From the NCBI GenBank assembly GCA_015852425.1, contig JAAAIG010001055.1, forward strand, positions 1-11,606: a stretch of 11,606 nt of DNA, written 5' to 3'. A program made the translations under genes and the position numbers. Source of the stretch: Gryganskiella cystojenkinii (Eukaryota; Mortierellomycota; Mortierellomycetes; Mortierellales; Mortierellaceae). This document shows, piece after piece, positions 1-11,606 of the stretch. The stretch's first letter is position 1, and each line of letters starts with the position of its first letter. The notes under the pieces were generated by a model. The model had not been told where the DNA came from. It saw nothing but the letters and a program-made list of their open reading frames with translations, and did not search any database.

Positions 1-180
1 TGTTGTGCTTTTTGTACCCCCTTTTGATCGTAGTAGCGCCGCCTGAAGCTGAAAGAGGCAATTGGTTTTTGGACTGTGACCCAATAAATCTCTTATCAAC
101 AAAAAAAAAACATCGCGGTTCGTTGACCAAAGGACGGTTCAAAAGGATACCGTGTCCACAGCAAAATAAATAGACTTCGC
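1..180. other. 5' flank of the Ser-rich gene, no gene seen
   Basis: No coding region is convincing here. The stretch holds an ATTGG/CCAAT pair of boxes (around 61-66 and 81-85), an A10 run near 101 and an AAATAAATAG element near 163-173. These are compatible with a fungal promoter for the plus-strand gene that follows, but none is decisive. Confidence 0.35.
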
Positions 181-382
181 ATGCACGCACAAAACACACC
201 GACACTCTCTTTTTTACGTGTGGCACTTTTCTCCATCCATTTCTCATTTCATTCTCTTCCATTCCCACTTTTTTTTCTCTTTCCTTCTTCTTCTTTCCTT
301 GCTGCCTTCCTCCTCCTCACTCTGGAACAGGAAAGAACACCGCCCACGGCCTTCAAGAACAAACCCCAAGAACTCAGTATCC

Positions 383-1205
383 ATGGAGACCTTTTCGATG
401 GCGAGCGCCATCAAGAGTCGCTTACTTCATCTTCTGCCATCCAAACAGGGACTAGTAACTCCCGATCGTCCTTATCCTGCTCGCACTTAGGACCAGCCCA
501 GGAGATCGCCTCTCGAACCCTTCACTCTCCACATACAGTATTGAGTCTATACCGCTCACCCCCTCCGTCATCATCGTTGTCGGCCTCAGATTCTGTCCGG
601 TCCCGATCGTCGTCTCCGTCACCTTCGTTGTCGCCAAGTTTGTCTCGGTCCACACAATCAACCTCGTCCACACTATCATCGACACCTCAGTCTTCTCGTC
701 GTATCCTAAGCCGATCGATTACCGCTACAACCACACGCGCAAACCAGACTCTTTCCCTCGTCAGAGATCGTGGTCATCAGACGATTGGATTAAGCGATAG
801 CGAGGACTTTGTCATCTACAAGGATAACTTCAACGTAGAAGAAGGTGATGAAATAGAAGGGGAGGTAAGAAAACCTAATCACCAAGGATTTATTTTGTGT
901 GGGGGGGGGGGGGGGGGGGGAGTTGAAGTGCTCTATGCCGGTTTACTGCTTATAGGTACTGCTAGGTTTCCTTTCGTTTCTAAAAATGGCACTCTAACCC
1001 TGCTCTGTATTTGCTTGTCTCTCTGAATTGTGATGAACGGTAGACCGAGGCGGAAGGATTGCTTGAACCAGAGAATGACAAAGAGAACGTCTTGCATCAT
1101 GACGATGGCCAAGGTAGACGGAGCAGAAACCTAAACCGGCTGGACTTGAATCATGCCTCGGTCAGACATCCTTCGGTTGTTCGTGACCCTCTTCACGAAC
1201 TCTGA
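383..1205 (+). CDS. Ser/Arg-rich disordered protein with KEN motif, spliced (start uncertain)
   Basis: I do not recognise the family. The last intron is clear: a GAG|GTAAGA donor at 865 and an acceptor ending ACGGTAG at 1041-1043. Removing it keeps frame and joins a long Ser/Arg/Pro-rich disordered region (502-864) to an acidic 53-residue tail (1044-1205). The tail contains ENDKENV, a KEN box of the kind read by APC/C, and ends RDPLHEL. The start is uncertain. One model starts at ATG 383 (METFSMASAIK) with a 47-nt GTAACT...CCCAG intron at 455-501, giving 198 residues. The other reads frame 1 without a break from ATG 181. I prefer 383, because translating 181-380 gives only Phe/Leu/Ser/Pro typical of a pyrimidine-rich leader. 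No signal peptide or fold is visible. A cell-cycle role would be inference from the KEN box alone. Confidence 0.5.
865..1043 (+). other. Intron with G20 homopolymer
   Basis: A GTAAGA donor and a TAG acceptor delimit 179 nt. Retaining it would add a Gly run and an unrelated hydrophobic end, whereas splicing restores a polar, acidic tail. The intron carries an uninterrupted run of 20 G (901-920) on the coding strand. Confidence 0.7.
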
Positions 1206-2435
1206 AGCAAGTTTTCCGCAGATCATTTAAACTTCTTAGCATGCAAACCCATTTTATATTCTCTTTCTCTATGCTTCCTACTCTCTTGACCATATAGCTG
1301 TCGTGCTTGGCATGTATCCACATGTGCGTCTTGTGTCTTTGGTTAGTTTCTCTTTGCTTTTTTTGCGCAAAATACCTGTTTTCAAGGCTTTCTTGCTTGT
1401 GCAATACACTCTGCTTTCTTGAGTTGATGACCAAAAGGTGTGAAGTGGAAAATAATGCCATGCTTTGCATTGTTTTATTCCGAAAAAAAATCAAGCAAGC
1501 AACTCGTCACCTTTCAGCTGCCACTCGGTCACCCTGAATGGTGGTGAAAGAGGAGAACAGGAGATCAGCCGAGTCTTCTCCACTGGCGCGATCTAGGCGA
1601 AACCTTGGCGATCCATATTTTTCCACTCCTAGACGCTCGGCTAGGACAACAACAGAAACCAACGAGGGACAATATACTTTTTTTTTTTTTTGGCCCGAGA
1701 CCCAAACATAACCTTGGAAGAACCATCGCTACTCTTTCATTCTAAATATCAATCGATTTTCCCACGAGTCAGGGCACAGAGAGTTCTACCCTTCTTCTTG
1801 AAACCCAGGCAGGAAACCCTTGAGGATAACCATCAACTATCAATTGTTATACGTCACGACCGCGACTTCTCTCTTCGCCTCTCTTCCTCTTAGGCGGAGG
1901 ATTAAAAAAAAATTCGTCGGACTTGAGAGCTTGTGTGCCATTGCCCCCACAAAAAAAAGGGGGAGGGGGAGGTTAAGTAGTCCTTCCAAACTGACAAGTG
2001 CTCTCTACCCTTGATAGTACGATACACTGCTATTTCTTCCATTGCATTACTATCTGTGCAAGAGACTAAGCCTGTATAATGAATCGGACCATCTGACCCT
2101 CTCCCGATGGCCATTTAAACAGGTCCTGTCCGGCCGCTCTTTGTTCGCTTCTTTTTCTTTCGCTTCCTCGTCCAATACTGTTACCCAAAGACCTCACTCT
2201 AGCCCTCCGACTGAACTAAATTTACTCTGCATGTTAAGAAGTTCATTCTCTCTCTTCAGCCCTCATCCTTCGGATGATTGCCACATGAATAATTCAGCTT
2301 GACTACCGATTTCGCGCCTTTTTCTCTTGAAACCGAATCTACAGCTCTATTTAGCCTTCCAATTGATATTCTCCATCCTTTTTCTCATCATCTTCGGCCC
2401 CGGCTCATTTTCACATCTGAAACAAACACTAGAAT
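1206..2435. other. Gene-poor interval with one short coding-like ORF
   Basis: No gene can be modelled with confidence. The part from 1240 to 1500 is T/C-rich like a UTR or intron. At 1538-1711 a 57-codon plus-strand ORF has coding-like composition (motifs SPLARSRRN and FSTPRRSARTTT) but runs into a T14 tract and stops, with no GT donor available beforehand. At 1946-1972 there is an A/G-rich tract with G5 runs. From 2303 to 2459 an open stretch contains an F-box-like phrase (LFSLPIDILHPFSHHL), which is too little to call. There is no RNA gene or clear repeat. Confidence 0.4.
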
Positions 2436-2718
2436 TCAATCCTTCTCCATGCGATCATAACGATCGTGGTTCTCGTGGCACTTCTGACGATAGTGTTTGA
2501 GGTCGTGATATCAAGTATCAACGGCGACTGCCATCGCTTGCCTTGTCGAACTGGTCCTCCAATTCATCCCGGGTCTGACCTATCCACCTTTGATTGGCAA
2601 GCATGACCTGTGCTTCTATGTCGGACCAGTTTGTGACATTTGTGCGGGTATCAATGAAAGAAAAAAGCTCGTCAAGAAGAAGTTCGTGTCCATCTTGGTC
2701 TAGGTGCTGACATGCCAC
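2436..2718 (-). pseudogene. Broken hydrophilic coding remnant, unknown family
   Basis: A minus-strand frame from ATG 2718 runs 66 codons to a stop at 2518-2520. It is rich in charged residues (for example DELFSFIDTR, RWIGQTRDELEDQF). Eight bases further on, in another frame, 2510-2436 reads 24 codons of the same highly charged style (DLKHYRQKCHENHDRYDRM). The two pieces look like one helical, hydrophilic protein split by a small indel, but no splice sites fit between them. I do not recognise the family. The coding signal is compositional only, so chance cannot be excluded. It sits just upstream of the isolated SRP-receptor exon on the opposite strand. Confidence 0.3.
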
Positions 2719-2840
2719 TTCCCCCTCCCAAAGAGCCTTTGTCGCACCGCTTCTGGCTCTCAGTTCCTACGCACAACAAGCTCCGCTGCCCTGTTTGCCC
2801 ACCCTTGGACTTGTACGATTTTTTTTTTTTTTTGAAATAG

Positions 2841-3146
2841 CTCGTAACAGTGAACAACCCAGACAAGATCATTTTCGTGGGAGAGGCTCTGGTCGGTAAC
2901 GAGGCTGTGGACCAGTTGACGAAATTCAACGCGGCTTTGAAGGATTATTCGGGACTGGCGAACCCTCGTCACATCGACGGTATGATCTTGACCAAGTTTG
3001 ATACCATTGATGACAAGGTCGGAGCAGCACTCTCTATGACGTATACAACGGGTCAACCGATTTTGTTTGTGGGTACGGGTCAGACGTATACGGATCTCAA
3101 GAATATGAAGGTCAGCCATGTGGTAGCTTCGCTTTTGCGAGAGTAA
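2841..3146 (+). CDS. SRP receptor alpha subunit, 3'-terminal exon only (orphan)
   Basis: This is the C-terminal end of the signal-recognition-particle receptor alpha subunit (SRP101/SRPRA type), the GTPase that docks SRP-ribosome complexes at the ER membrane. It opens after a strong acceptor (T15 tract, then GAAATAG, ending at 2840) and encodes 101 residues beginning [20 protein letters not shown]. The G-domain features seen are [13 protein letters not shown], the G4 guanine-specificity motif TKFD (about residues 52-55), the [13 protein letters not shown] segment and the G5-like VGTGQTY. The P-loop, G2, the DTAGR (G3) motif and the whole N-terminal SRX and linker region should precede it. None was found between 1 and 2840, where another gene lies. 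The reading frame has no lesions. It may be a duplicated fragment, the end of a gene with an exceptionally long intron, or an assembly join. Confidence 0.85.
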
Positions 3147-3596
3147 AACGGGTCTCTCCTCTAGGTTCTAGTCTACTCCATCATACCATATCGCTCTCAT
3201 TTCATTTCTAGACACTCCTCTTCTCGCCTAATCTTTGTCTACAAACAACGACAATAAAAAATCAAAAAGTCATAACCTGACATGGGATGGGATTCGAGTG
3301 TGGTCGAGAGCAGATAAATGTGAACAAGGGAATTTGATTCTCGAGTTTACTCGCTTGACAGAGCAGAGAGAGGACCGGTTGGGAACCGCCGTTCCTCATG
3401 CAGTCCAAAGATGACACAATGACGCGCGCCCTAAACGCGATCCTGCAAATCTTCGCAGAGTGACGTAGAAGCACTTTTTTTTCTTTTGGTCACACGCTCA
3501 ATTGTTGGAACGTTTTTCTTTTATGCATCAACCATTTCATCTCTTTTCATTACTTCCATCTTTCTTTAGTACCACACTCCGATTAAAACAAACAAC
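3147..3596. other. Intergenic: 3' UTR of SRPR exon and promoter of first inhibitor gene
   Basis: No further coding is supported. The left third is a plausible 3' UTR with a poly(A) signal. The right third becomes T/C-rich (from about 3475) and ends in AAACAAACAAC directly before ATG 3597, a favourable A-rich start context for the inhibitor_I9 gene. Confidence 0.4.
3252..3257 (+). terminator. Putative poly(A) signal AATAAA
   Basis: An AATAAA hexamer lies about 106 nt after the stop of the SRP-receptor exon, a normal distance for a fungal 3' UTR. This suggests the fragment kept its 3' end when duplicated. Confidence 0.4.
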
Positions 3597-4328
3597 ATGT
3601 CTTGTAAGCGCAACCCATCTTTGTCGGTTTTCCGCTTCTGTTTTGCCCTGGCTCTATATTTTTAAGTACGTGGAAAACTAACACCTATTTCCTTGGCATT
3701 GCCACAAACGCCATTATAACGCACTATCCTCCAGCCCATTCTCATTCCCACGGCCAGCAGGCTCACGGACAGCAGGCTCATGGACAGCAGGCTCACGGAA
3801 CTACCAACGCGACTGTGAATGCTCTCTCTGCCTCAGTCCTCCCTGTTGCAACGGCTCACCCTGGAGCCAATGTTGCTCATTCCTTGGCCACAGCTCCTGG
3901 TGAAGCTCCGTCAACAATCCCCTCGAAGGCTGGTCTTTCGGCCCCAGAAGGAAAGAACAAGGTTATTGTCGTCTTCAAGTCTCACACCCCCGCTGCAGAG
4001 ATCGAGGCTGCGATCAAGGATTGTGAAGCCCAAGGTAAAAAAAAAAAATGCGACGCTTTATCGTGGGAGAGGAGAATTTGAGAAGAGCTTTTTATTATTT
4101 TTTATCGCAGCATAATATGCGTTCGCAAAAAAAAACTGAACTCTTTCTCTCTCTTGCTTTGTTCTAGGAGGAAAGATTACGCAAAGATATACCTCGGCTC
4201 TGTTGGGATTCGCGGCCGAGGTTCCTGATGGCAACCTGCAGACCCTGACCGTACACCCTCATGTGGATTATGTTGAGCCCGATGGTGAGGTCTCGATCTA
4301 TGGCAAGAAGCTTTTGTCCAAGAAGTGA
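3597..4328 (+). CDS. Inhibitor_I9 / proteinase B inhibitor-like protein, paralog 1
   Basis: This encodes a 155-residue, probably cytosolic protein of the peptidase inhibitor I9 family (subtilisin propeptide-like, as in yeast Pbi2), expected to bind and inhibit subtilisin-type proteases such as vacuolar proteinase B. There are three exons: 3597-3603 (ATG TCT T), 3735-4034 and 4168-4328. Both introns are GT-AG and phase 1 (3604-3734 and 4035-4167). The I9 fold spans about residues 77-147: KVIVVFKS strand, AEIEAAIKDCEAQG helix, ITQRYTSALLGFAAEVP, then VHPHVDYVEPDGEV. Known relatives of about 75 residues lack the roughly 75-residue Ala/Pro/Gly-rich N-terminal extension seen here. The extension starts with a His-rich run (SHSHSHG, then three GQQAH units). 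No signal peptide is visible. A second paralog with the same gene structure lies at 7450-8161. The family call is firm; the protease target is inferred. Confidence 0.88.
3604..3734 (+). other. Intron 1 of inhibitor paralog 1
   Basis: The donor is T|GTAAGC after the seventh coding base, and the acceptor is TATCCTCCAG. It is 131 nt, phase 1. The same position and phase occur in the second paralog. Confidence 0.8.
3752..3796 (+). repeat. Three tandem 15-bp units encoding GQQAH
   Basis: The units 3752-3766, 3767-3781 and 3782-3796 differ by one or two bases and encode three in-frame copies of Gly-Gln-Gln-Ala-His. Following SHSHSH, they make a His-rich N-terminus that the second paralog lacks. 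Confidence 0.9.
4035..4167 (+). other. Intron 2 of inhibitor paralog 1
   Basis: The donor is CAAG|GTAAAA followed by a long A run, and the acceptor is TTTGTTCTAG. It is 133 nt, phase 1. It splits the Gly-Gly between the first helix and the second strand of the I9 fold. Confidence 0.85.
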
Positions 4329-4702
4329 AACGGCCGACGATCATCATTACTGTCGTCATCATCTCCGTTGCGACCTTCAACAGCGTCAACCCCAGGATCA
4401 GGTCGGATCAACAGAACAAACAGGAGCCCAACATCTAGACTGTAAACCTAAGCTTTTTCTATCATAAAGGATGAGTTTTTAACGGTCGAAAAAGGTGCCT
4501 GCCTGCTCGTGGAATATTTATGTGTGTCGCGGGTCTTGTATAGATAGTGCTTGGGTGAAAAATGGACAATGCGCGCGATTCTGTCATCATGCAGTCCCTA
4601 GGCGAGTCGTGAGAGTTGGTGTTCGAGTCGTGAGGCAGCGAGTTCTAGCCTAGTCCCACAAAATGTGTTTGTACAGTTATATTGAGACCAAAAAATGAAA
4701 AG

Positions 4703-4718
4703 GACCTCCTAGGAGGTC
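4703..4718. repeat. Perfect 16-bp palindrome
   Basis: GACCTCCTAGGAGGTC reads the same on both strands with no spacer. It lies in the convergent intergenic region, so it could be a dimeric protein-binding site or a short structured element in a 3' UTR. Confidence 0.6.
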
Positions 4719-4837
4719 TAGGGAACATGCATGTAAAGCAATATGGCGCTTATGCGAAATAGACACGATTGACAAGAAATATGGCACAATCATTTCAAAA
4801 AAGTATATGGTAGACAAGTTTATGAGCTGTAATGATT

Positions 4838-4843
4838 TTTATT
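4838..4843 (-). terminator. Putative poly(A) signal for the minus-strand gene
   Basis: AATAAA on the minus strand lies about 285 nt downstream of the stop at 5129. A plus-strand AATAAA at 4862-4867 lies next to it, so the 3' ends of the convergent genes may overlap. Confidence 0.3.
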
Positions 4844-5128
4844 TTTTCGAACAATATCTTCAATAAAGCCAATGATTAAGCAAAAAAAAGGCAAAGCATA
4901 AACGACAAATGAAGAAAAGGAAGCAGGAAGCAGACTATGAAAAGGAGAATACGGACTATGATACAAGAAGATTACAAGCTAATGGTGGTGTACAAATCAA
5001 GCGGGATAGGAATGATTGTTCAAGGTATGAAAGCGAGAGATGAGGGCTAGCAAGGTCGCTGTGATGATGATAAAAGATGGGTATGCAAATGATGGGCAGC
5101 TTGGACAGTACCTGAGATACGTGTTTTC

Positions 5129-6247
5129 TTACTCTGCAAAGGCCTCGTCCGAATATCGGTCGATGGGTACGTAGCCAGGGCTGGGACTGAGACTCAGCCT
5201 TCCGCTTGAATAACAAGTGAAGCCTACTGCAGCGTATGAATCATCATGCATATCCATATCCATATCCATATCATTGTCTTCGTCATCATCATAATAGTTC
5301 ACCTCATTCTTGTGGGAGTAAACGGGTCCATCTTGAATGTAGAACTTGTCGTCGTTGGGATCGAGATCCGGGTTCAGGGTGTTGTAATCAAAGGGTACAT
5401 ATGGTTCCTCGCCGTCGTCGTCCTCAGACATCCACCAGCTGGATCGGGGAAGGAGCGTCCACTGGGTTGACGGAGATGAGGAAGCATCATAGTAGGGTGA
5501 TTGAGAGTTCACTTGATCTAAGGAAGGGGACCAACCAGGCGTGGTCGGGAATCTTGGCGAGACGAGGTGGTTGTCGTTGTAGTAGGAGAGTGAAAGTGGA
5601 CTCTGGCCGCTGTAGTAGACAGTGTGTTGGCTTGAGTACTGACTTGAGGGAACCAAGTCGTCGGCGAAAGGAGGGGTGGCATGACCGACAGTAGCAGCCG
5701 CAGGAGAAACGGACCAACGAGAAGGGGAAGAAACATTCGGTGTCTTGGCCAAGGAGTCGTTGGTATTGCTGAGCTCAGAAAAAGAAGAAGTCGACATAAA
5801 ATGAGTGGCTGTCTCATGTTGAAGCGGAGAATGAATCTGAGCAGTAGAGGAAACCAATGACTCTTCTTGGACGAAAAAAGGGCTGCGGCCACGGCAGATA
5901 GGAGACGCAGGTGGGGAGGAGACCTTGTGGCCTTGCTCCTGGCTTGAAAACGAGGATGAGACAGCAGCGGCAGCTGACTCGGTGGTCGTCATACGACTCT
6001 TGTTATTCTTGCTGGCGAGAATTTCGAGGTCGAGGAGGGTCATCTCGGGCGAAGGATAGTATTGTTGCTGCTGACTGGCAGTGAGATTGACAGTCAAAGA
6101 AGCAGAAAAAGATTTGTTAGCAGCTGCAGGGCTACTAGCATTCATCTCTAGAGAAGGCGACGAAGTCGTAGGGGGAAGGCGGTTCTTACCATGGAGCCCC
6201 TCCATCCCATCTACTGATTCAAAAGCCATCATTGGTGTGTCCAACAT
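5129..6247 (-). CDS. Ser/Pro-rich disordered protein with acidic tail, unknown function
   Basis: An intronless frame encodes 372 residues from ATG 6247 (MLDTPMMAFES; A at -3 and A-rich leader) to a TAA at 5129-5131. The frame stays open upstream to 6571. That part translates to Phe/Leu/Ser and HQ repeats from CT-rich DNA, so I treat it as leader. The N-terminal two thirds are low-complexity Ser/Thr/Pro/Ala with many SP/TP sites (for example SSPSRWSVSPAAA, TTPGWSPSLD), candidate CDK/MAPK targets. The last 110 residues are acidic and aromatic (SEDDDGEEPYVPFDY, then a DNDMDMDMDM run). No catalytic motif, signal peptide, membrane helix or recognised DNA-binding domain is visible. An acidic activator or scaffold role is possible but is only inference. 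The protein is hydrophilic and likely intracellular. Confidence 0.75.
   Translation of the reverse strand: MLDTPMMAFESVDGMEGLHGKNRLPPTTSSPSLEMNASSPAAANKSFSASLTVNLTASQQQQYYPSPEMTLLDLEILASKNNKSRMTTTESAAAAVSSSFSSQEQGHKVSSPPASPICRGRSPFFVQEESLVSSTAQIHSPLQHETATHFMSTSSFSELSNTNDSLAKTPNVSSPSRWSVSPAAATVGHATPPFADDLVPSSQYSSQHTVYYSGQSPLSLSYYNDNHLVSPRFPTTPGWSPSLDQVNSQSPYYDASSSPSTQWTLLPRSSWWMSEDDDGEEPYVPFDYNTLNPDLDPNDDKFYIQDGPVYSHKNEVNYYDDDEDNDMDMDMDMHDDSYAAVGFTCYSSGRLSLSPSPGYVPIDRYSDEAFAE
5249..5272. repeat. Hexanucleotide microsatellite in coding sequence
   Basis: Four tandem CATATC units encode the Asp-Met alternation in the acidic tail of the minus-strand gene. Unit gain or loss would change length without breaking frame. 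Confidence 0.85.
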
Positions 6248-6640
6248 ATTTTTGATTGTCTTCAAAAAAGCAAAAAAAAAAAAAAGTAACGAGAAGCTGA
6301 CAAAAGGGGAAAGAGGGAGAAAAGAGAACAAAGAAGAGAAAAAGGCAAAACCGGCAAAGATGGTGGACCGTGTGTATATGTGTGTATATGTGTAGTGTCT
6401 GATATAGAGAGAGAGGGAGAGGCAGAGGATGTGTTGATGTTGATGTTGATGTGAAGAAGAAAAAGAAAGAAAAAGAAAAAAAAAAGTGGCGGAGTGCTTT
6501 TCTTGGTTGCGTTGGGCTCTTTCAAAAGGGTATGGAAATAACGAGAAAATTGTTGACGTCATCAATTGCATGGAAATAAAGGTTTTGATTGAATGTTCGA
6601 TTGTGATCGCAAAATTGATCTACAGAAATATCGAAAGGTA
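6248..6640. other. Leader and promoter of the minus-strand gene, low complexity
   Basis: On the minus strand this is a long CT-rich leader. Its simple repeats, read on the plus strand, are an A13 run (6276-6288), alternating TGTGTATATG (6370-6396), a GA-rich tract (6405-6430) and TTGATG triplets (6433-6450). A perfect CRE-like site lies at 6554-6561. No separate gene is seen. Confidence 0.45.
6554..6561. promoter_or_regulatory. Perfect CRE / ATF-CREB bZIP site TGACGTCA
   Basis: The 8-bp palindrome TGACGTCA sits 307 bp upstream of the minus-strand gene's ATG and 80 bp from the tRNA-Ala gene. In fungi this is the classic bZIP (ATF/CREB) site used in stress responses. Assigning it to the minus-strand gene is inference from position. 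Confidence 0.5.
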
Positions 6641-6712
6641 GGGGTTGTAGCTCAGTGGTAGAGCGCTCGCTTTGCATGCGAGAGGCCCTGGTTTCAATCA
6701 CCAGCTGCTCCA
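6641..6712 (+). tRNA. tRNA-Ala(UGC), slightly atypical
   Basis: A full cloverleaf of 72 nt. The acceptor strand is GGGGTTG, the D stem GCTC/GAGC, and the anticodon stem CTCGC/GCGAG with loop TTTGCAT (anticodon TGC). The T stem is CTGGT/ACCAG with loop TTCAATC, and the discriminator is A. The G3-U70 wobble that marks alanine tRNAs for AlaRS is present. There is no intron. A box TAGCTCAGTGG fits consensus. T6 opposite T67 is a mismatch. The near-universal G53-C61 pair is replaced by T-A, which also weakens the B box. A T run at 6715-6720 can end Pol III transcription. It could be a functional minor copy or an early pseudogene. Confidence 0.88.
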
Positions 6713-6714
6713 CA

Positions 6715-6727
6715 TTTTTTGCTTTTT
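6715..6727 (+). terminator. Pol III terminator T-tracts
   Basis: A T6 run two bases after the tRNA-Ala discriminator, followed shortly by a second T6 run, is a standard RNA polymerase III stop signal. Confidence 0.7.
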
Positions 6728-7449
6728 TCTTCGGTTAAAGAGCAATGCCCTTTTTTTTGCCTTCCGGCCCTAGTGTGCTATCCCGCTGGCACATACTCTT
6801 ATTGTCGAACTCACGCGAGAAATCGCCCGCCTCGCGTTCTTCGAGAACCCCAAGAAAAACAATGAAGCAAACCATAAAAGATCATGAGCAAGGAAGAAAT
6901 AAAGTGCTTTCTTTCCTTAACACAAACCACACGGACTAAGAAAATTGTGGCCATTTAAGAACGCGAGGACACTCTGCAACAAAGCTTCCACTTTTTTGGA
7001 GGCATCGAGTGCCAAGTCCTTCACCTGTGCTTACTAGGGCAAGAGCGAAAAAATCTTTTGAGTTGCATGAATTGCACCGTCTTGTCTTTCTTTTTCTTGT
7101 GTGATATGATTATGCCTTCTGCCATCATCCGGTTTACTAGCTTCCCCCTCCCCCTTTTTTTCGAACCCCCAATGCTCAAAAGAAACGCGCTTTTGAGTTT
7201 GAGGTCAGCGCCAAAAGAAGAGACCTCGGGATGGTGGAGATAAGGACAAGGATGACATCGGAGTCAGGTGACACAATGCTTCTTCAAGCATAAAAGTAGA
7301 ATGCATGGGCCTTAATTTCGCATCTCTTTCTTTTTTTCCTTGCTCCCTTCGCTCATCACCCCCCACCTCACACCCTTCCTTTATTCCACTCTCCTTTTCC
7401 ACCCACGCTGTCCTTCTTTAAACGTCTCTTTTCCGCCCGACGCCCCATC
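6728..7449. other. Intergenic region and promoter of second inhibitor gene
   Basis: No convincing coding on either strand; the open frames are short and compositionally random. From about 7320 the sequence becomes strongly C/T-rich, typical of leaders of well-expressed fungal genes. A TATA-like ATAAAAG lies at about 7291, some 160 bp before ATG 7450. CT-rich runs with CCCCT near 7142-7160 resemble STRE cores but are ambiguous in such composition. Confidence 0.4.
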
Positions 7450-8161
7450 ATGACCTGTAAGTCCACTTCACTTTTCCCTGTTAGTCTTTACGACGCCAAG
7501 GCTATGTAACCTTTTACTCACTCACTCCCTTTCAAATCTATGATGAATCTCCATCAAATATTTTAGCTGATTCCGAAGCCAACGCCTTGACTGCCTCCAT
7601 TCTCCCCGTTGGCACGACCGTCCCTGGAGCCAAGACTGCCAAACCGTTGGCCACGGCACCAGGCGTTGCACCCACAGGTCACGCCGCTGCCGAGCATAAA
7701 AACGCTGTGAACTCGGTCATCGTCGTCTTCAAGGCCGGTACTCTTGCCAGCGAGATCAAGGCCGCAGAGGATGATATCATCTCCCAAGGTAATTGTTGAT
7801 GAACCCTCTGGGTGTTGGAAGGACAAAAAGGAGGAATCACATTCGATTTATTTTCGTGTGCTCTATTTTTTCCCACACACGAACGTTTGCTCACGGTGTC
7901 ACTTTGCGGCTTTCCCTATTTGATACCCAATTCGTTACCGAAATTTTCTATAACGCTGACAACATTTCTGTTCTCTCGTGTTGTCCTTCAACATAAACTA
8001 TAGGTGGTGAGATCACTCAGAGATATACCACCGCCTTGCTCGGTTTCGCCGCCAAGGTACCCGACAACGCGTTCCAGTCCCTTACCGTTCGCCCTCAGGT
8101 GGACTATGTCGAATCTGATGGTGAAGTCAGCATTTACGCCCAGAACCTCATGAAGGGTTAG
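7450..8161 (+). CDS. Inhibitor_I9 / proteinase B inhibitor-like protein, paralog 2
   Basis: This encodes 128 residues of the same I9 inhibitor family as the gene at 3597. Exons are 7450-7456 (ATG ACC T), 7567-7788 and 8004-8161; introns are 7457-7566 (110 nt) and 7789-8003 (215 nt), both GT-AG and phase 1. The I9 core spans residues 52-121: SVIVVFKAGT, SEIKAAEDDIISQG, ITQRYTTALLGFAAKVP, VRPQVDYVESDGEV. The N-terminal extension shares the pattern ALxASxLPVxT..PGA..A..LATAPG.AP with its paralog, but has no His-rich repeats and is 25 or so residues shorter. No signal peptide is visible. The tyrosine- and Glu-rich end (YVE.DGEVSIY) is where I9 propeptides lie against the protease active site. The protease target is inferred from the family. 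Confidence 0.88.
7457..7566 (+). other. Intron 1 of inhibitor paralog 2
   Basis: The donor is T|GTAAGT and the acceptor is AAATATTTTAG. It is phase 1 and lies after the seventh coding base, exactly as in paralog 1. Confidence 0.85.
7789..8003 (+). other. Intron 2 of inhibitor paralog 2
   Basis: The donor is CAAG|GTAATT and the acceptor is AACTATAG. It is 215 nt, phase 1, at the same Gln-Gly position as intron 2 of paralog 1, but its sequence is unrelated. Confidence 0.85.
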
Positions 8162-8390
8162 GACTACTTTTGTTATTTTATGCCTTTCCCATTACCCACC
8201 ACAACCGCACCCGCCCTTTGCGCCCTTCTCTCTCTTTCTTCATGAGTAGTAGTAGCAGCGGCGCAGCTTTATTTCAGTTTTGTAGATTATGTTTTCCTTT
8301 TTTTTTTTCTCTCTCTATTTCCCTTAACCTTTTCCCTCCCGTCCGATCCTCAATGGTTGCATGAGTATGACATGTACATGCGTATTTGAG

Positions 8391-8441
8391 GAATATCTTC
8401 TTTTCTTTTTCGACTACAAACGACAAAGAAAAGAAATATTC
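8391..8441. repeat. Long imperfect inverted repeat (hairpin)
   Basis: The left arm 8391-8412 (GAATATCTTC...TTTTTCG) and right arm 8421-8441 (CGACAAAG...AATATTC) pair over 20 of 21 positions with one mismatch and one bulged base, around an 8-nt loop. In the transcript of the inhibitor gene this would form a stable 3' UTR stem. Confidence 0.7.
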
Positions 8442-8599
8442 GGAAATGACCTTTATGAAAAAAACCGAACAGGCTCTCGTTTACTCCGATCAAGTAGACG
8501 ATGAGCGAACCCTGGTTTTTGTCTTCAAGCATGGTGGTCGACCCCTCTTTCACACACACTCTCTCAAAAAAAAACCAGATTCTGTATATACAATCCCTC

Positions 8600-8605
8600 A
8601 ATAAA
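8600..8605 (+). terminator. Putative poly(A) signal for inhibitor paralog 2
   Basis: AATAAA follows the hairpin and lies about 440 nt after the stop at 8161. It is the first perfect hexamer I found downstream of the gene. Confidence 0.35.
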
Positions 8606-9015
8606 ACAAAATGTTATTGAACGTTCATTTTATGGGCTTTGTTCCGAGGCTTAAAACAGTCGTGAGATAGAGTGAGAACACGTCATGAAAGCTTGATCTT
8701 GCTCAGTCTTACTCTCGCAGAAAAGAGAGCAGGGTATTCAAATACGAGGACCTGGCAGTCCATACACATCTGTTGCGTGCTCGGGCACGTCCAAACATGG
8801 GACATCTTTTTGTTTTTTGAGTGTAGGAGACATACCCGAGACCAACAAAATAATTCAGCCCCGATGTCTTCATTAGGTGCAAGTGCATGCTTTCAAGTTG
8901 TGTTTCCGAGAAAAGTGATTCACTTTTTCTTTTTAGGAAACTGATATCCGAGTAAACCGGGGTTCTTTTCCAGGTAAAGAAGGGAGAGAGCGGCGCAAGC
9001 AGATACCCTCTCCCA

Positions 9016-9420
9016 TTATCTCGCGAATTTCGGCAAAAGTGGGAGGTCTGGATGGAGTTGTGGATTTTGTAACTGACCCTTGACTGAATGCCCCTGCTTT
9101 TGTTGTTCCCATGCTTTTTTTCCTCTTTCAATTTCGGTTCCACAAGTGTTGCGGCCGTGTTTTTCGCGTTCATGGCTGTCTCGATTTCTCTTCCGAGTGA
9201 ACTTCTTCTGGCAATGTCAATCTCGACAAGCGTGGTGGCTCTCGGGATGCGCTTCTCGTTTGTGCACGTTAAGCTTGCATTTTTTGTCACAGGTCCTGTG
9301 GCAACAGTGAAACTCACACTGTATTTCTCAGTTTCTTACCATTTCCAGTGTCGCAAGTTTCCGGCAACCTTCAAAAGCATGTTTCACGTGTCTTGCTTTG
9401 CATTTCTTTCCGCTAATGCT
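9016..9420 (-). pseudogene. C2H2 zinc-finger protein relic
   Basis: One minus-strand frame holds two tandem C2H2 fingers, both C-x4-C-x12-H-x4-H. Finger 1 is 9318-9247 (CEFHCC...NVHKREAH). After the linker PESHHA comes finger 2, 9228-9157 (CRD, stop, HCQKKFTRKRNRDSHEREKH). The frame is broken by TGA at 9328-9330, just before finger 1, and by TGA at 9217-9219, inside the knuckle of finger 2. Upstream in the same frame, 9420-9331 contains CKARHVKHAF and EGCRKLATLEMVRN, which look like an earlier decayed finger. Downstream the frame runs to TAA 9016-9018 with a Lys/Gln-rich tail. This was probably a DNA-binding protein. It lies directly 3' of the Fanzor-like relic on the same strand. No intact start was found. 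Confidence 0.65.
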
Positions 9421-9462
9421 TCAGTCAACTTTGCGAACTTGGTCTCAAAGACAGCTCACTAG

Positions 9463-10873
9463 ACCTGCTGCAACGCTGCGTAGAGGTACATGGACGTCGA
9501 CATTGCCACTAACATACTCCAAGCCAGCGTTGTAAGATTCGTGTGGTTCTGCACACGGAGATGCTGGGGCCATGATATTTGTGGAACGCTCTCGATTGGT
9601 TCCAATTGCGGTAGTTCCACCAAGTGAAAAGCACATTGAGTACTCTTGAACTGTCCAAGACCAATACCAATCAAGACTGGATTGGCGGGGTCCTTGGCTC
9701 CTTGGTTCATAATGCTTCCACCTACGATACCCAACAGACTCGCCGCAATGGCCTAGCATTATGTTTGCTTGGCCCTCATCGAACCCTGGTGTGTTCTTCT
9801 AGAATCGATTATTGTTGCCGTTGTAGAATTTCAGAACCCCTCTACTATTGGCTCCTTTGGTTTCTCCATTTAGGCTTCCTCTGAGAGTTTTTTTGATAGC
9901 TTCGAATGCCTCTCAGTAATTGACGACACTCGCTCCTGGACCTCGAAGTGGTAGGAGACGAGACTCCATATCCACGATCCGCAATCGATTCTGGTTGACC
10001 TTCCACTCCCAATCGCGCCTCTTCTCAAGCCACTTCCTGTATCGGAAGACAGGTTGCATAACTGCCTTTAGTTGACGGCATGGTTATAGTGGCCATCTGG
10101 ATCCACTGGTAGAAAAGCATATGCGCCTACTACAAATGCTTGCCCAGCGTCGAGTGTCAGGGTCTTGATACTGCATGGGTCGACTCTGGGCCACAGCTTT
10201 TCAATGTCCTCCTTGGTTCGGACAATGTGTCGAATTTCCTGGAGATAATAGTCTGTGCCGCTGACGGTCGAGGTAATCTGCGATGGTAAACGCGCTTCCA
10301 GTAGTATCCTGCGTCGCACGCGGTGTGACTCTTTCAACTTGAAAAGCCACCAGGTACAATCCAAAGCTGTCTATTAGCACGGAGCCTCTTGAGATATATT
10401 CATTCTCGTGGTAGTTCCCTGGTGGAAAGCTCGGCTCTTCCAACTTTTTCAAGTACCTCTTGAGGGTATCCAAGGACTGTAACTTGATGTTGCCCGCTTT
10501 TCGTTTCCGGTGATTCGTTAACCTGTCTGGATCCATTTCGGCGACAAACTGTTTGATGAAAAAGCCTGGCTCCTTTTCGTCTATCCAGGTTCGTCTCTCT
10601 TCCTTGACCCAATATCTGGCCGTCAGTGAGATCAAACTTGGCGACGGTTTTCCCGCTCCAACGATGGCACAAACCTCATCAAATCGAGCCTTGTTGATGT
10701 GTGACATCTACCAGTGACAATGTATGTTCGCAGTACTTCAATTATTACCGTCTTTGTGAAGATCACAGGCTCCTCTTCTGTACATTCTCTAAAGCTCTCC
10801 TTTCAGTTGCCCGACGATAGATCGTATCTGGTCTATGGTGGCGAGTGTCCCCGATATGCAGTTATGATTAACT
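9463..10873 (-). pseudogene. Fanzor/TnpB-like RuvC nuclease relic
   Basis: Reading the minus strand downwards, collinear segments of a Fanzor-type (eukaryotic TnpB homolog, RNA-guided nuclease) protein appear in alternating frames. 10851-10740: QIRSIVGQLKGEL, stop, RMYRRGACDLHK. 10707 to about 10310: KEPGFFIKQFVAEMDP and SRGSVLIDSFGLYLVAFQ. About 10310-10068: ITSTVSGTDYYLQEIRHIV, then RuvC-I IKTLTLDAGQAFVVGA with the Asp at 10149-10151. 10068 to about 9756: QPVFRYRKWLEKRRDW, LPLRGPGASVVNY, KFYNGNNNRF. About 9756-9650: AASLLGIVGGSI, PVLIGIGLGQF. About 9650-9463: AIGTNRERSTNIMAPAS and NVDVHVPLRSVAAG. Stops are at 10789-10791, 10738-10740, 10708-10710, 9913-9915 and 9799-9801; frameshifts lie near 10310, 10068, 9756 and 9650. 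The zinc-ribbon cysteines and RuvC-III Asp appear lost. It is non-functional as read. Confidence 0.72.
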
Positions 10874-10976
10874 CTGATTTGACAGAAAAGAAAAATCAAT
10901 TAATCAATCGAAAGGGCACATGTCGTTTGTGTTCAATCGAAATAAGGAGCACATGTCGTTCAGTGCTTGAGCTTAC
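10874..10976 (-). other. Intron joining the PIN-like and Fanzor-like parts in frame
   Basis: On the minus strand AAG|GTAAGC (exon end 10977) and a C/T-rich tract ending TCAAATCAG (acceptor at 10874) define a 103-nt intron. The PIN-like frame ends in phase 2. After removal, the next codons start at 10872, which is exactly the frame that reads into the Fanzor-like segment. Chance gives this one time in three. Confidence 0.5.
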
Positions 10977-11392
10977 CTTATGAATCGATACTTTTTTTGA
11001 TGGGGTAGATTTGTAGGAGAGTAGATATTTCTGTTGTAGTCGTTCGAAGATACAACGGCGAGGGCCGTGACATGTTGTCGAGTCAATCCAAGTTCCTGAC
11101 AGACACCCGTGAGCTTGTATGCAAGGACTAGGCATTTGGAGTCAGGAAGACAATGAGAGATGACAAGTAGAGTGTTGACACAAGACTGGCGCGGCTGATC
11201 ACAGTATAAAATGACAGAGACATCGACGAGAACCCACTGACTGCTCATAGCAAACAGCTTCGTGGATACATGTATTACTTGTGGAGTCCTTAAAGCGTAG
11301 AAACGCGAGTCAGTCTTTAAGTTCCAATGTTGGTTTGCATACGCAATAGTAAGGGCCAGTTTCTTCGGAGTAAAGGGCTGGAGGCCGATCAT
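10977..11392 (-). CDS. XPG/FEN1-like (PIN) nuclease N-terminal exon, internally deleted
   Basis: An open frame starts at ATG 11392 with MIGLQPF, close to the MGIxGLxPxL start of XPG/FEN1 family nucleases. VLVDVSVILYC (Asp57) fits the first PIN-domain acidic strand. LGLTRQHVTALAVVSSNDYN (Asp118) fits the later FEN1-like block equivalent to GTDYxPG. The part that should lie between them, including the EA(D)-type and DSD-type acidic motifs, is missing, so I infer an internal deletion of roughly a hundred residues or more and no activity. The 139-codon frame has no stops up to a canonical donor at 10976, and splicing there enters the Fanzor-like frame. I recall large Mortierella-type proteins with both parts, but did not verify this. 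It may be transcribed from the TATA/CCAAT promoter at its 5' side. Confidence 0.55.
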
Positions 11393-11433
11393 GTCGGGAG
11401 TTAGTGCGATAACTTGAAAAAAAGGGCGACAGT

Positions 11434-11442
11434 CTTTTTATA
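11434..11442 (-). promoter_or_regulatory. TATA box of the PIN-like gene
   Basis: TATAAAAAG on the minus strand ends about 42 bp upstream of ATG 11392. An inverted CCAAT box (ATTGG on plus, 11518-11522) lies about 75 bp further upstream, a normal Pol II promoter arrangement. Confidence 0.5.
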
Positions 11443-11469
11443 ATAACTTGAGCTTTCCAAAAACCCGGG

Positions 11470-11491
11470 CACGTGATCTATTTATCACGTG
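11470..11491. promoter_or_regulatory. Inverted repeat of two CACGTG E-boxes
   Basis: CACGTGAT (11470-11477) and ATCACGTG (11484-11491) form a perfect inverted repeat around a 6-bp spacer. Each arm contains a palindromic CACGTG, the site of bHLH factors (Cbf1/Pho4/MYC type). It lies between the PIN-like gene and tRNA-Leu, 78 bp from the ATG. Confidence 0.55.
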
Positions 11492-11553
11492 ATAATTGTT
11501 GGATTTGATGGAATCCTATTGGAAAATTCTGAAACCGAATTATCGAATCAGAA

Positions 11554-11606
11554 GGCAGTATGGCCGAGTTGGTCTAAGGCGCCAGAATCAGGATCTGGTC
11601 CGAAAG
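11554..11606 (+). tRNA. tRNA-Leu(CAG), 3' part beyond window
   Basis: The 5' 53 nt of a class II tRNA: acceptor strand GGCAGTA, A box TGGCCGAGTTGG with the long leucine-type D loop, and anticodon stem CCAGA/TCTGG with loop ATCAGGA (anticodon CAG, reading CUG). No intron follows the anticodon, and the variable arm has just begun (TCCGAAAG) where the window stops. The acceptor 3' strand and T arm are not visible. Confidence 0.88.

Follow-up and report, generated by a model that had tools for sequence, protein, structure and literature searches.

The closest known Fanzor1 proteins to the gene family described here are PpFz1 of Parasitella parasitica (PDB 9cf0) and SpuFz1 of Spizellomyces punctatus (8gkh/9ceu). 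According to the parts of PMC11423790 drawn on here, most Fz1 proteins are 600-700 amino acids long, and PpFz1 and SpuFz1 were both produced in yeast; according to those of Yoon 2023 (PMC10711439) Fanzors are marked by an alternative RuvC-II glutamate, a near-exclusive DPG in RuvC-I and a TDG in the WED domain. In this study we analysed 11,606 nucleotides (nt) of Gryganskiella cystojenkinii (assembly GCA_015852425.1, contig JAAAIG010001055.1, positions 1 to 11,606; hereafter the window), the minus strand of which carries the remains of a Fanzor-like nuclease preceded by pieces of a 5'-nuclease. This copy is a dead, internally deleted member of a multi-copy Mortierellaceae-like gene family and cannot encode the fused protein itself. 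Its long relatives, judged from their gene models, very probably unite a FEN1/EXO1/XPG-type 5'-nuclease and a CRISPR-related, Fanzor1-like nuclease in one predicted polypeptide.

The family resembles the Mucoromycotina Fanzor1 elements (Bao and Jurka 2013, PMC3627910), which in the portions of that paper used here are multi-copy fungal elements, some of them without recognisable terminal repeats; in contrast to the family, the terms XPG, PIN domain, FEN1 and fused are absent from its main text in a term search, as is Mortierell. The terms XPG, PIN domain, Mortierell, flap, Mucoromycot and fusion are likewise absent from the main texts of the Fanzor papers PMC10711439, PMC10432273 and PMC11423790. 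Our literature search yielded no paper that pairs Fanzor with XPG or names "Cas12f1-like TNB", and two that contain both Fanzor and flap endonuclease; an earlier notice of the fusion may exist. Compared with PpFz1 and SpuFz1, the family is longer owing to an added N-terminal 5'-nuclease, and its RuvC-I motif reads mostly DLG instead of DPG.

Relatives carrying both nucleases in one gene model

On contig C201 of the same genome (contigs of this genome are denoted C, relatives' proteins P), a protein of 812 amino acids can be read in a single frame across four exons, separated by three GT-AG introns, until the contig ends. A protein search with it returned 107 relatives, and a second search added 11 (118 in total). 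The named species among them belong to genera of Mortierellaceae, except for Umbelopsis ramanniana (Mucoromycota), whose Fanzor-like protein P0106 lacks the nuclease in its gene model; if the start of this gene has been mis-called, the fusion may reach Mucoromycota. By eye, the first ~70 residues of P0106 resemble the linker located behind the nuclease in the fused proteins. Gene models of the long members predict single polypeptides of ~1,170-1,360 amino acids, and in P0006 of Mortierella sp. GBAus27b the 5'-nuclease occupies residues 1-297, the linker ~298-430 and the Fanzor1-like nuclease ~430-1130. Both halves were present in most of the proteins of a 14-protein alignment over 1,100 amino acids, in which P0095 was without most of the Fanzor motifs. 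When the EAD, DxD and NDY motifs were sought by pattern, they occurred in 29 of the 107 relatives, and 27 of these 29 also had a Fanzor motif. Twenty-eight of the 118 proteins, from seven genera and several of them marked partial, were longer than 900 amino acids and contained EAD, NDY and a Fanzor motif; the site counts and distances given below refer to these 28 fused proteins, the other 90 being left out. An exact-word search with residues 1-330 of P0001 from Entomortierella parvispora retrieved four proteins, P0001 itself included.

The PIN-type fold that the first-pass annotation had suspected upstream of the Fanzor-like part was found in the N-terminal half as a 5'-nuclease (PIN-like) fold, with the DNA 5'-nucleases EXO1, FEN1 and XPG as the top solved structures. 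The EXO1 and FEN1 structures tied within 1 Z, and the best sequence matches were RAD2 and archaeal FEN1. For the active site of the family we use the FEN1 numbers D34, D86, E158, E160, D179 and D233, which we take to be the corresponding positions. The seven-carboxylate cluster was present in the fused proteins: D34 was kept in 20/28 (7 gaps, 1 other residue), D86 in 26/28 (2 gaps), D179 in 26/28 (2 other residues) and E158, D181 and D233 in all 28, the position of E160 being Asp in every one. The gateway Lys (+7) occurred in 26/28 (2 gaps) and the Arg (+14) in 27/28 (1 gap), with the same spacing as in archaeal FEN1; in the passages of PMC4825025 followed here, the gateway residues of FEN1 are K93 and R100, and D181 carries that number. 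At an E value of 0.01, Pfam XPG_I was detected in 14 and XPG_I_2 in 4 of the 44 members of set A1. In P0001, P0006, P0039, P0074 and P0107 these matches stayed under the curated cut-offs, a cut-off being a sequence threshold and no definition; precomputed Pfam matches exist for P0017 and P0022 (PF12813) and for P0114 and P0116 (PF00867). The family differs from the FEN1/EXO1/XPG(RAD2) superfamily in its fusion to a Fanzor-like nuclease, in the Asp that replaces the second Glu of the EAE motif and in a weak or missing XPG_I score in the members scanned. By fold and active site, the N-terminal half fits this superfamily.

Pfam Cas12f1-like TNB / OrfB_Zn_ribbon (PF07282) matched the C-terminal half in 35 of the 44 members of set A1 (E 0.01), and this half has the Fanzor1 fold. 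In 37 of the 39 proteins (of 107) whose zinc finger could be read, the alternative RuvC-II glutamate precedes it by six residues, and TDG in the WED domain was found by pattern in 65/107. The long members combine this TDG with the RuvC-I Asp, the shifted RuvC-II Glu, the zinc finger and the RuvC-III Asp. Among the fused proteins the TDG Asp was kept in 24/28 (Asn in the other 4), the RuvC-I Asp in 27/28 (1 gap), the alternative RuvC-II Glu in 18/28 (8 gaps, 2 other residues) and the RuvC-III Asp in 19/28 (8 gaps, 1 other residue). However, the RuvC-I motif of the 76 proteins read (of 107) was DLG in 70, DPG in 2 and different from both in 4. Because DPG is the exception although TNB, the alternative Glu, TDG and the fold agree, we name this half, with its predicted RNA-guided cleavage, Fanzor1-like and not canonical Fanzor. 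The 481-residue exon sequence of C201 gave matches to solved structures at chance level only.

The first-pass annotation had proposed that a flap-endonuclease-like and an RNA-guided-nuclease-like domain form one polypeptide, and had asked whether intact relatives always keep the two parts as separate genes; they do not, as long relatives carry both in one gene model. At the same time, several observations weigh against the fusion. The long fused models are computer predictions, and in 70/107 relatives, with many short or partial proteins, a Fanzor motif occurs without the full set of nuclease motifs. Of the 31 contigs of the same genome that we examined, 30 match the family; 8 of these 30 carry the nuclease only and 16 the Fanzor part only (counts limited by contig ends and short flanks), and no single tblastn match spans the junction in the DNA of this genome. 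Gene finders might have merged two adjacent genes, which would make the long proteins annotation artefacts. We regard this as very improbable, as the order of the parts is identical in seven genera and the linker is conserved in parts. Moreover, both parts lie on one strand in six contigs of this genome, with the nuclease before the Fanzor part in C56, C124, C405, C427 and C1019 and the parts interleaved in C518. In P0118 (JGI source) a single open frame runs across the junction, from position 260 to 641 of P0006; this protein appears to be an intron-less gene call, because an unspliced intron is seemingly included. In addition, the two halves co-vary: their pairwise distances correlate (378 pairs; Mantel r 0.64, reached in 0 of 2000 permutations; Spearman 0.40), as would be expected for long shared descent.

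The decayed copy in the window

All 292 matches of the 107 relatives to the window (E 1e-3) lie on the minus strand, with 9576 as the lowest coordinate; the first-pass annotation had likewise placed the nuclease pieces upstream of the Fanzor relic on the same strand. The minus-strand frame 11392-10976 is open. The coordinates of the recognisable pieces are given in Table 1.

Table 1. Remnants of the fused gene and the stretch between them in the window
Feature	Position	Strand	Evidence
N-terminal 5'-nuclease remnant with VLVDV	11195..11335	minus	C124 DNA 69%, E 5e-9; P0039/P0001 would place it later
5'-nuclease I-region remnant; SSNDYN (11033-11050) = FEN1 D233 block	11018..11146	minus	profile 39.8 bits; tblastn; C124 DNA 76% over 11140-11017
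103-nt GT-AG stretch, in frame between pieces; sequence for ~370 residues of intact proteins not found here	10874..10976	minus	
Remnant of a segment conserved within the Fanzor-like REC region, close to P0006 612-636, carrying a stop codon	10753..10845	minus	31 residues with 45% identity to P0035 (E 1.4e-5); aligned P0039
Fanzor-like remnant, two frames with stops	9576..10707	minus	tblastn E 5e-38; C124 DNA 67% over 10587-9640

The SSNDYN block is nuclease-like, as had been supposed. A profile built from 14 long relatives matched 41 residues including it (11140-11018), while the top score among 35,200 shuffled open reading frames was 9.5 bits, and proteins of single relatives matched 11146-11003 with tblastn E values down to 8.9e-10. 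The window and the paralogue C124 align in three colinear blocks, between which the window is shorter by ~300 base pairs (bp; blocks 1 and 2) and ~500 bp (blocks 2 and 3). The first of these blocks contains VLVDV (11233-11219), annotated as a PIN-type strand; in intact proteins, the part that aligns with this stretch of C124 is the first active-site strand (D34 type). However, P0039 (E 1e-9) and P0001 (E 1.7e-4), when aligned with gaps, match VLVDV/VILYCDQ of the window to the later DSD strand. We prefer the DNA match to C124, by which VLVDV is probably the first active-site strand at the FEN1 D34 position. The DG, EAD and DSD motifs of the 5'-nuclease were not seen in the window copy, and Pfam gave only weak matches to the window pieces, all under the cut-off.

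The reading of MIGLQPF (11392-11372) as a FEN1-like start did not hold. The similarity to C124 starts at 11335, and the first codon of C124 (ATG at 9471, followed by a stop), which aligns with intact N-termini, pairs with window position ~11327, ~65 nt inside from MIGLQPF. None of the N-termini of 19 proteins (first 320 residues, E up to 5) was placed on it. On the C124 colinearity, the profile match and these N-terminal searches we rejected MIGLQPF as the nuclease start, and because the start codon of C124 pairs with ~11327 the motif is probably fortuitous.

The canonical GT-AG intron that had been annotated between the two parts was confirmed only in part. The 103-nt stretch exists and joins in frame to 10845-10753, a segment conserved in intact fusions; as proof of a native junction it was rejected, as 4 of the 8 GT-AG pairs examined near it are in frame and no match to P0006 residues ~240-611 was found between the two pieces of the window. 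The stretch cannot be presented as a native intron because sequence for these ~370 residues of the intact protein was not found there. The spliced reading meets three in-frame stops after this junction. The Fanzor-like remnant keeps a RuvC-I-like TLDAGQAFVVGAYAF, the TDG position reads IDS, and the zinc finger and RuvC-III were not found in it.

A dispersed 42-nt sequence and other features of the window

Five copies (C201, C434, C502, C533 and C552) have in common a 42-nt sequence, nearly identical among them, on the 3' side of the Fanzor part. It begins 96 nt after the stop codon in C201, 132 nt in C552 and 789 nt in C434; in the decayed C533 and C502 it either overlaps the frame or sits no more than ~45 nt from where coding similarity is last clear. 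A genome-wide pattern search gave 15 copies of a 33-nt form and 18 of a 23-nt form, so that at least 13 copies exist besides these five; the reversed pattern gave none, and the window contains no copy of the 42-nt sequence at up to 3 mismatches. Ten other fetched loci had no Fanzor protein homology within the DNA examined (up to 1.5 kb on each side); their flanks are mostly unrelated, and C498 shares an extra 49-nt piece with C201. In C201 and C434 the 42-nt sequence makes up one arm of an extended hairpin, with z -5.7 and -2.6, respectively, and in C502, C533 and C552 the folds around it are different (z -1.1 to -2.2). Rfam returned no match at the gathering score on 15 loci. The sequence may be the right end of the element, part of a guide RNA or a target that the element abuts.

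Elsewhere in the window, two similar plus-strand genes with introns placed by eye (~3600-4328 and 7450-8160) resemble small peptidase-inhibitor proteins, presumably of I9 type. An open frame at 2841-3146 (plus strand) looks, by eye, like the GTPase portion at the C-terminus of the signal recognition particle receptor. At ~11555-11606 (plus strand), ~220 bases from the relic, what looks by eye like the beginning of a tRNA-Leu-like gene is cut by the contig end; ARAGORN reported only a tRNA-Ala at 6641-6713.

Possible action of the fused protein

By analogy with the two families, an RNA made by the element would guide the Fanzor-like part to its target, where RuvC would then make a staggered break. 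Among known Fanzors, SpuFz1 leaves 5' overhangs, and others leave blunt or 3' ends (PMC10432273, in the parts used here). After the break, the tethered 5'-nuclease would trim or resect the 5' ends or flaps. Simple rejoining would thereby be discouraged, and repair would be pushed to copy the element, with an intact homologous locus as its source, or the ends would be tidied at insertion. We infer the coupling of cutting with end processing, and with it the guide RNA, the order of the steps and the benefit to the element. This cut-and-resect mechanism is put forward tentatively, at somewhat below even chances. The more specific version, a one-chain enzyme whose resection of the guided break would make repair copy the element into the site, with a guide perhaps coming from the 42-nt sequence, is more doubtful still. 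Taken as a whole, a dead copy of a fused family that would combine a guided cut with 5'-end processing appears the best explanation, which we hold to be moderately probable.

The 5'-nuclease might instead serve transposition and not the repair of guided breaks, clearing excision or insertion intermediates of flaps or overhangs, with the Fanzor-like part working on its own. Flaps are substrates of FEN1-type nucleases, many copies of the gene are scattered through the genome, and the conserved 3' sequence near five of them fits a mobile element. Nevertheless, the tether to a guided nuclease suggests that the two work together where the guide directs them, and inverted repeats of at least 18 nt were absent from locus L012, with no convincing ones next to the 42-nt sequence (no search aimed at a transposase was made), so we consider this unlikely. 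Many PIN-fold proteins are RNases, and with a probably RNA-dependent partner in the same chain the domain could act on RNA and mature the guide; the top solved structures are DNA 5'-nucleases, however, and both gateway residues of the FEN1 type, Lys and Arg, are retained, making this role less likely again. Long copies from several genera retain both active sites, which would also suit a domesticated, host-controlled nuclease for defence or silencing that does not serve the element, but the genome holds many dispersed pieces (42 matches), mostly partial or with stops, as is typical of a mobile element, and we think this highly unlikely.

If active, the preferred cut-and-resect protein would naturally combine RNA-guided cleavage and end processing in a single chain, and would offer a ready-made basis for genome editors that bias the outcome of repair. 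The family makes it testable how a eukaryotic element gains from guided cuts and how the resulting break is channelled into repair.
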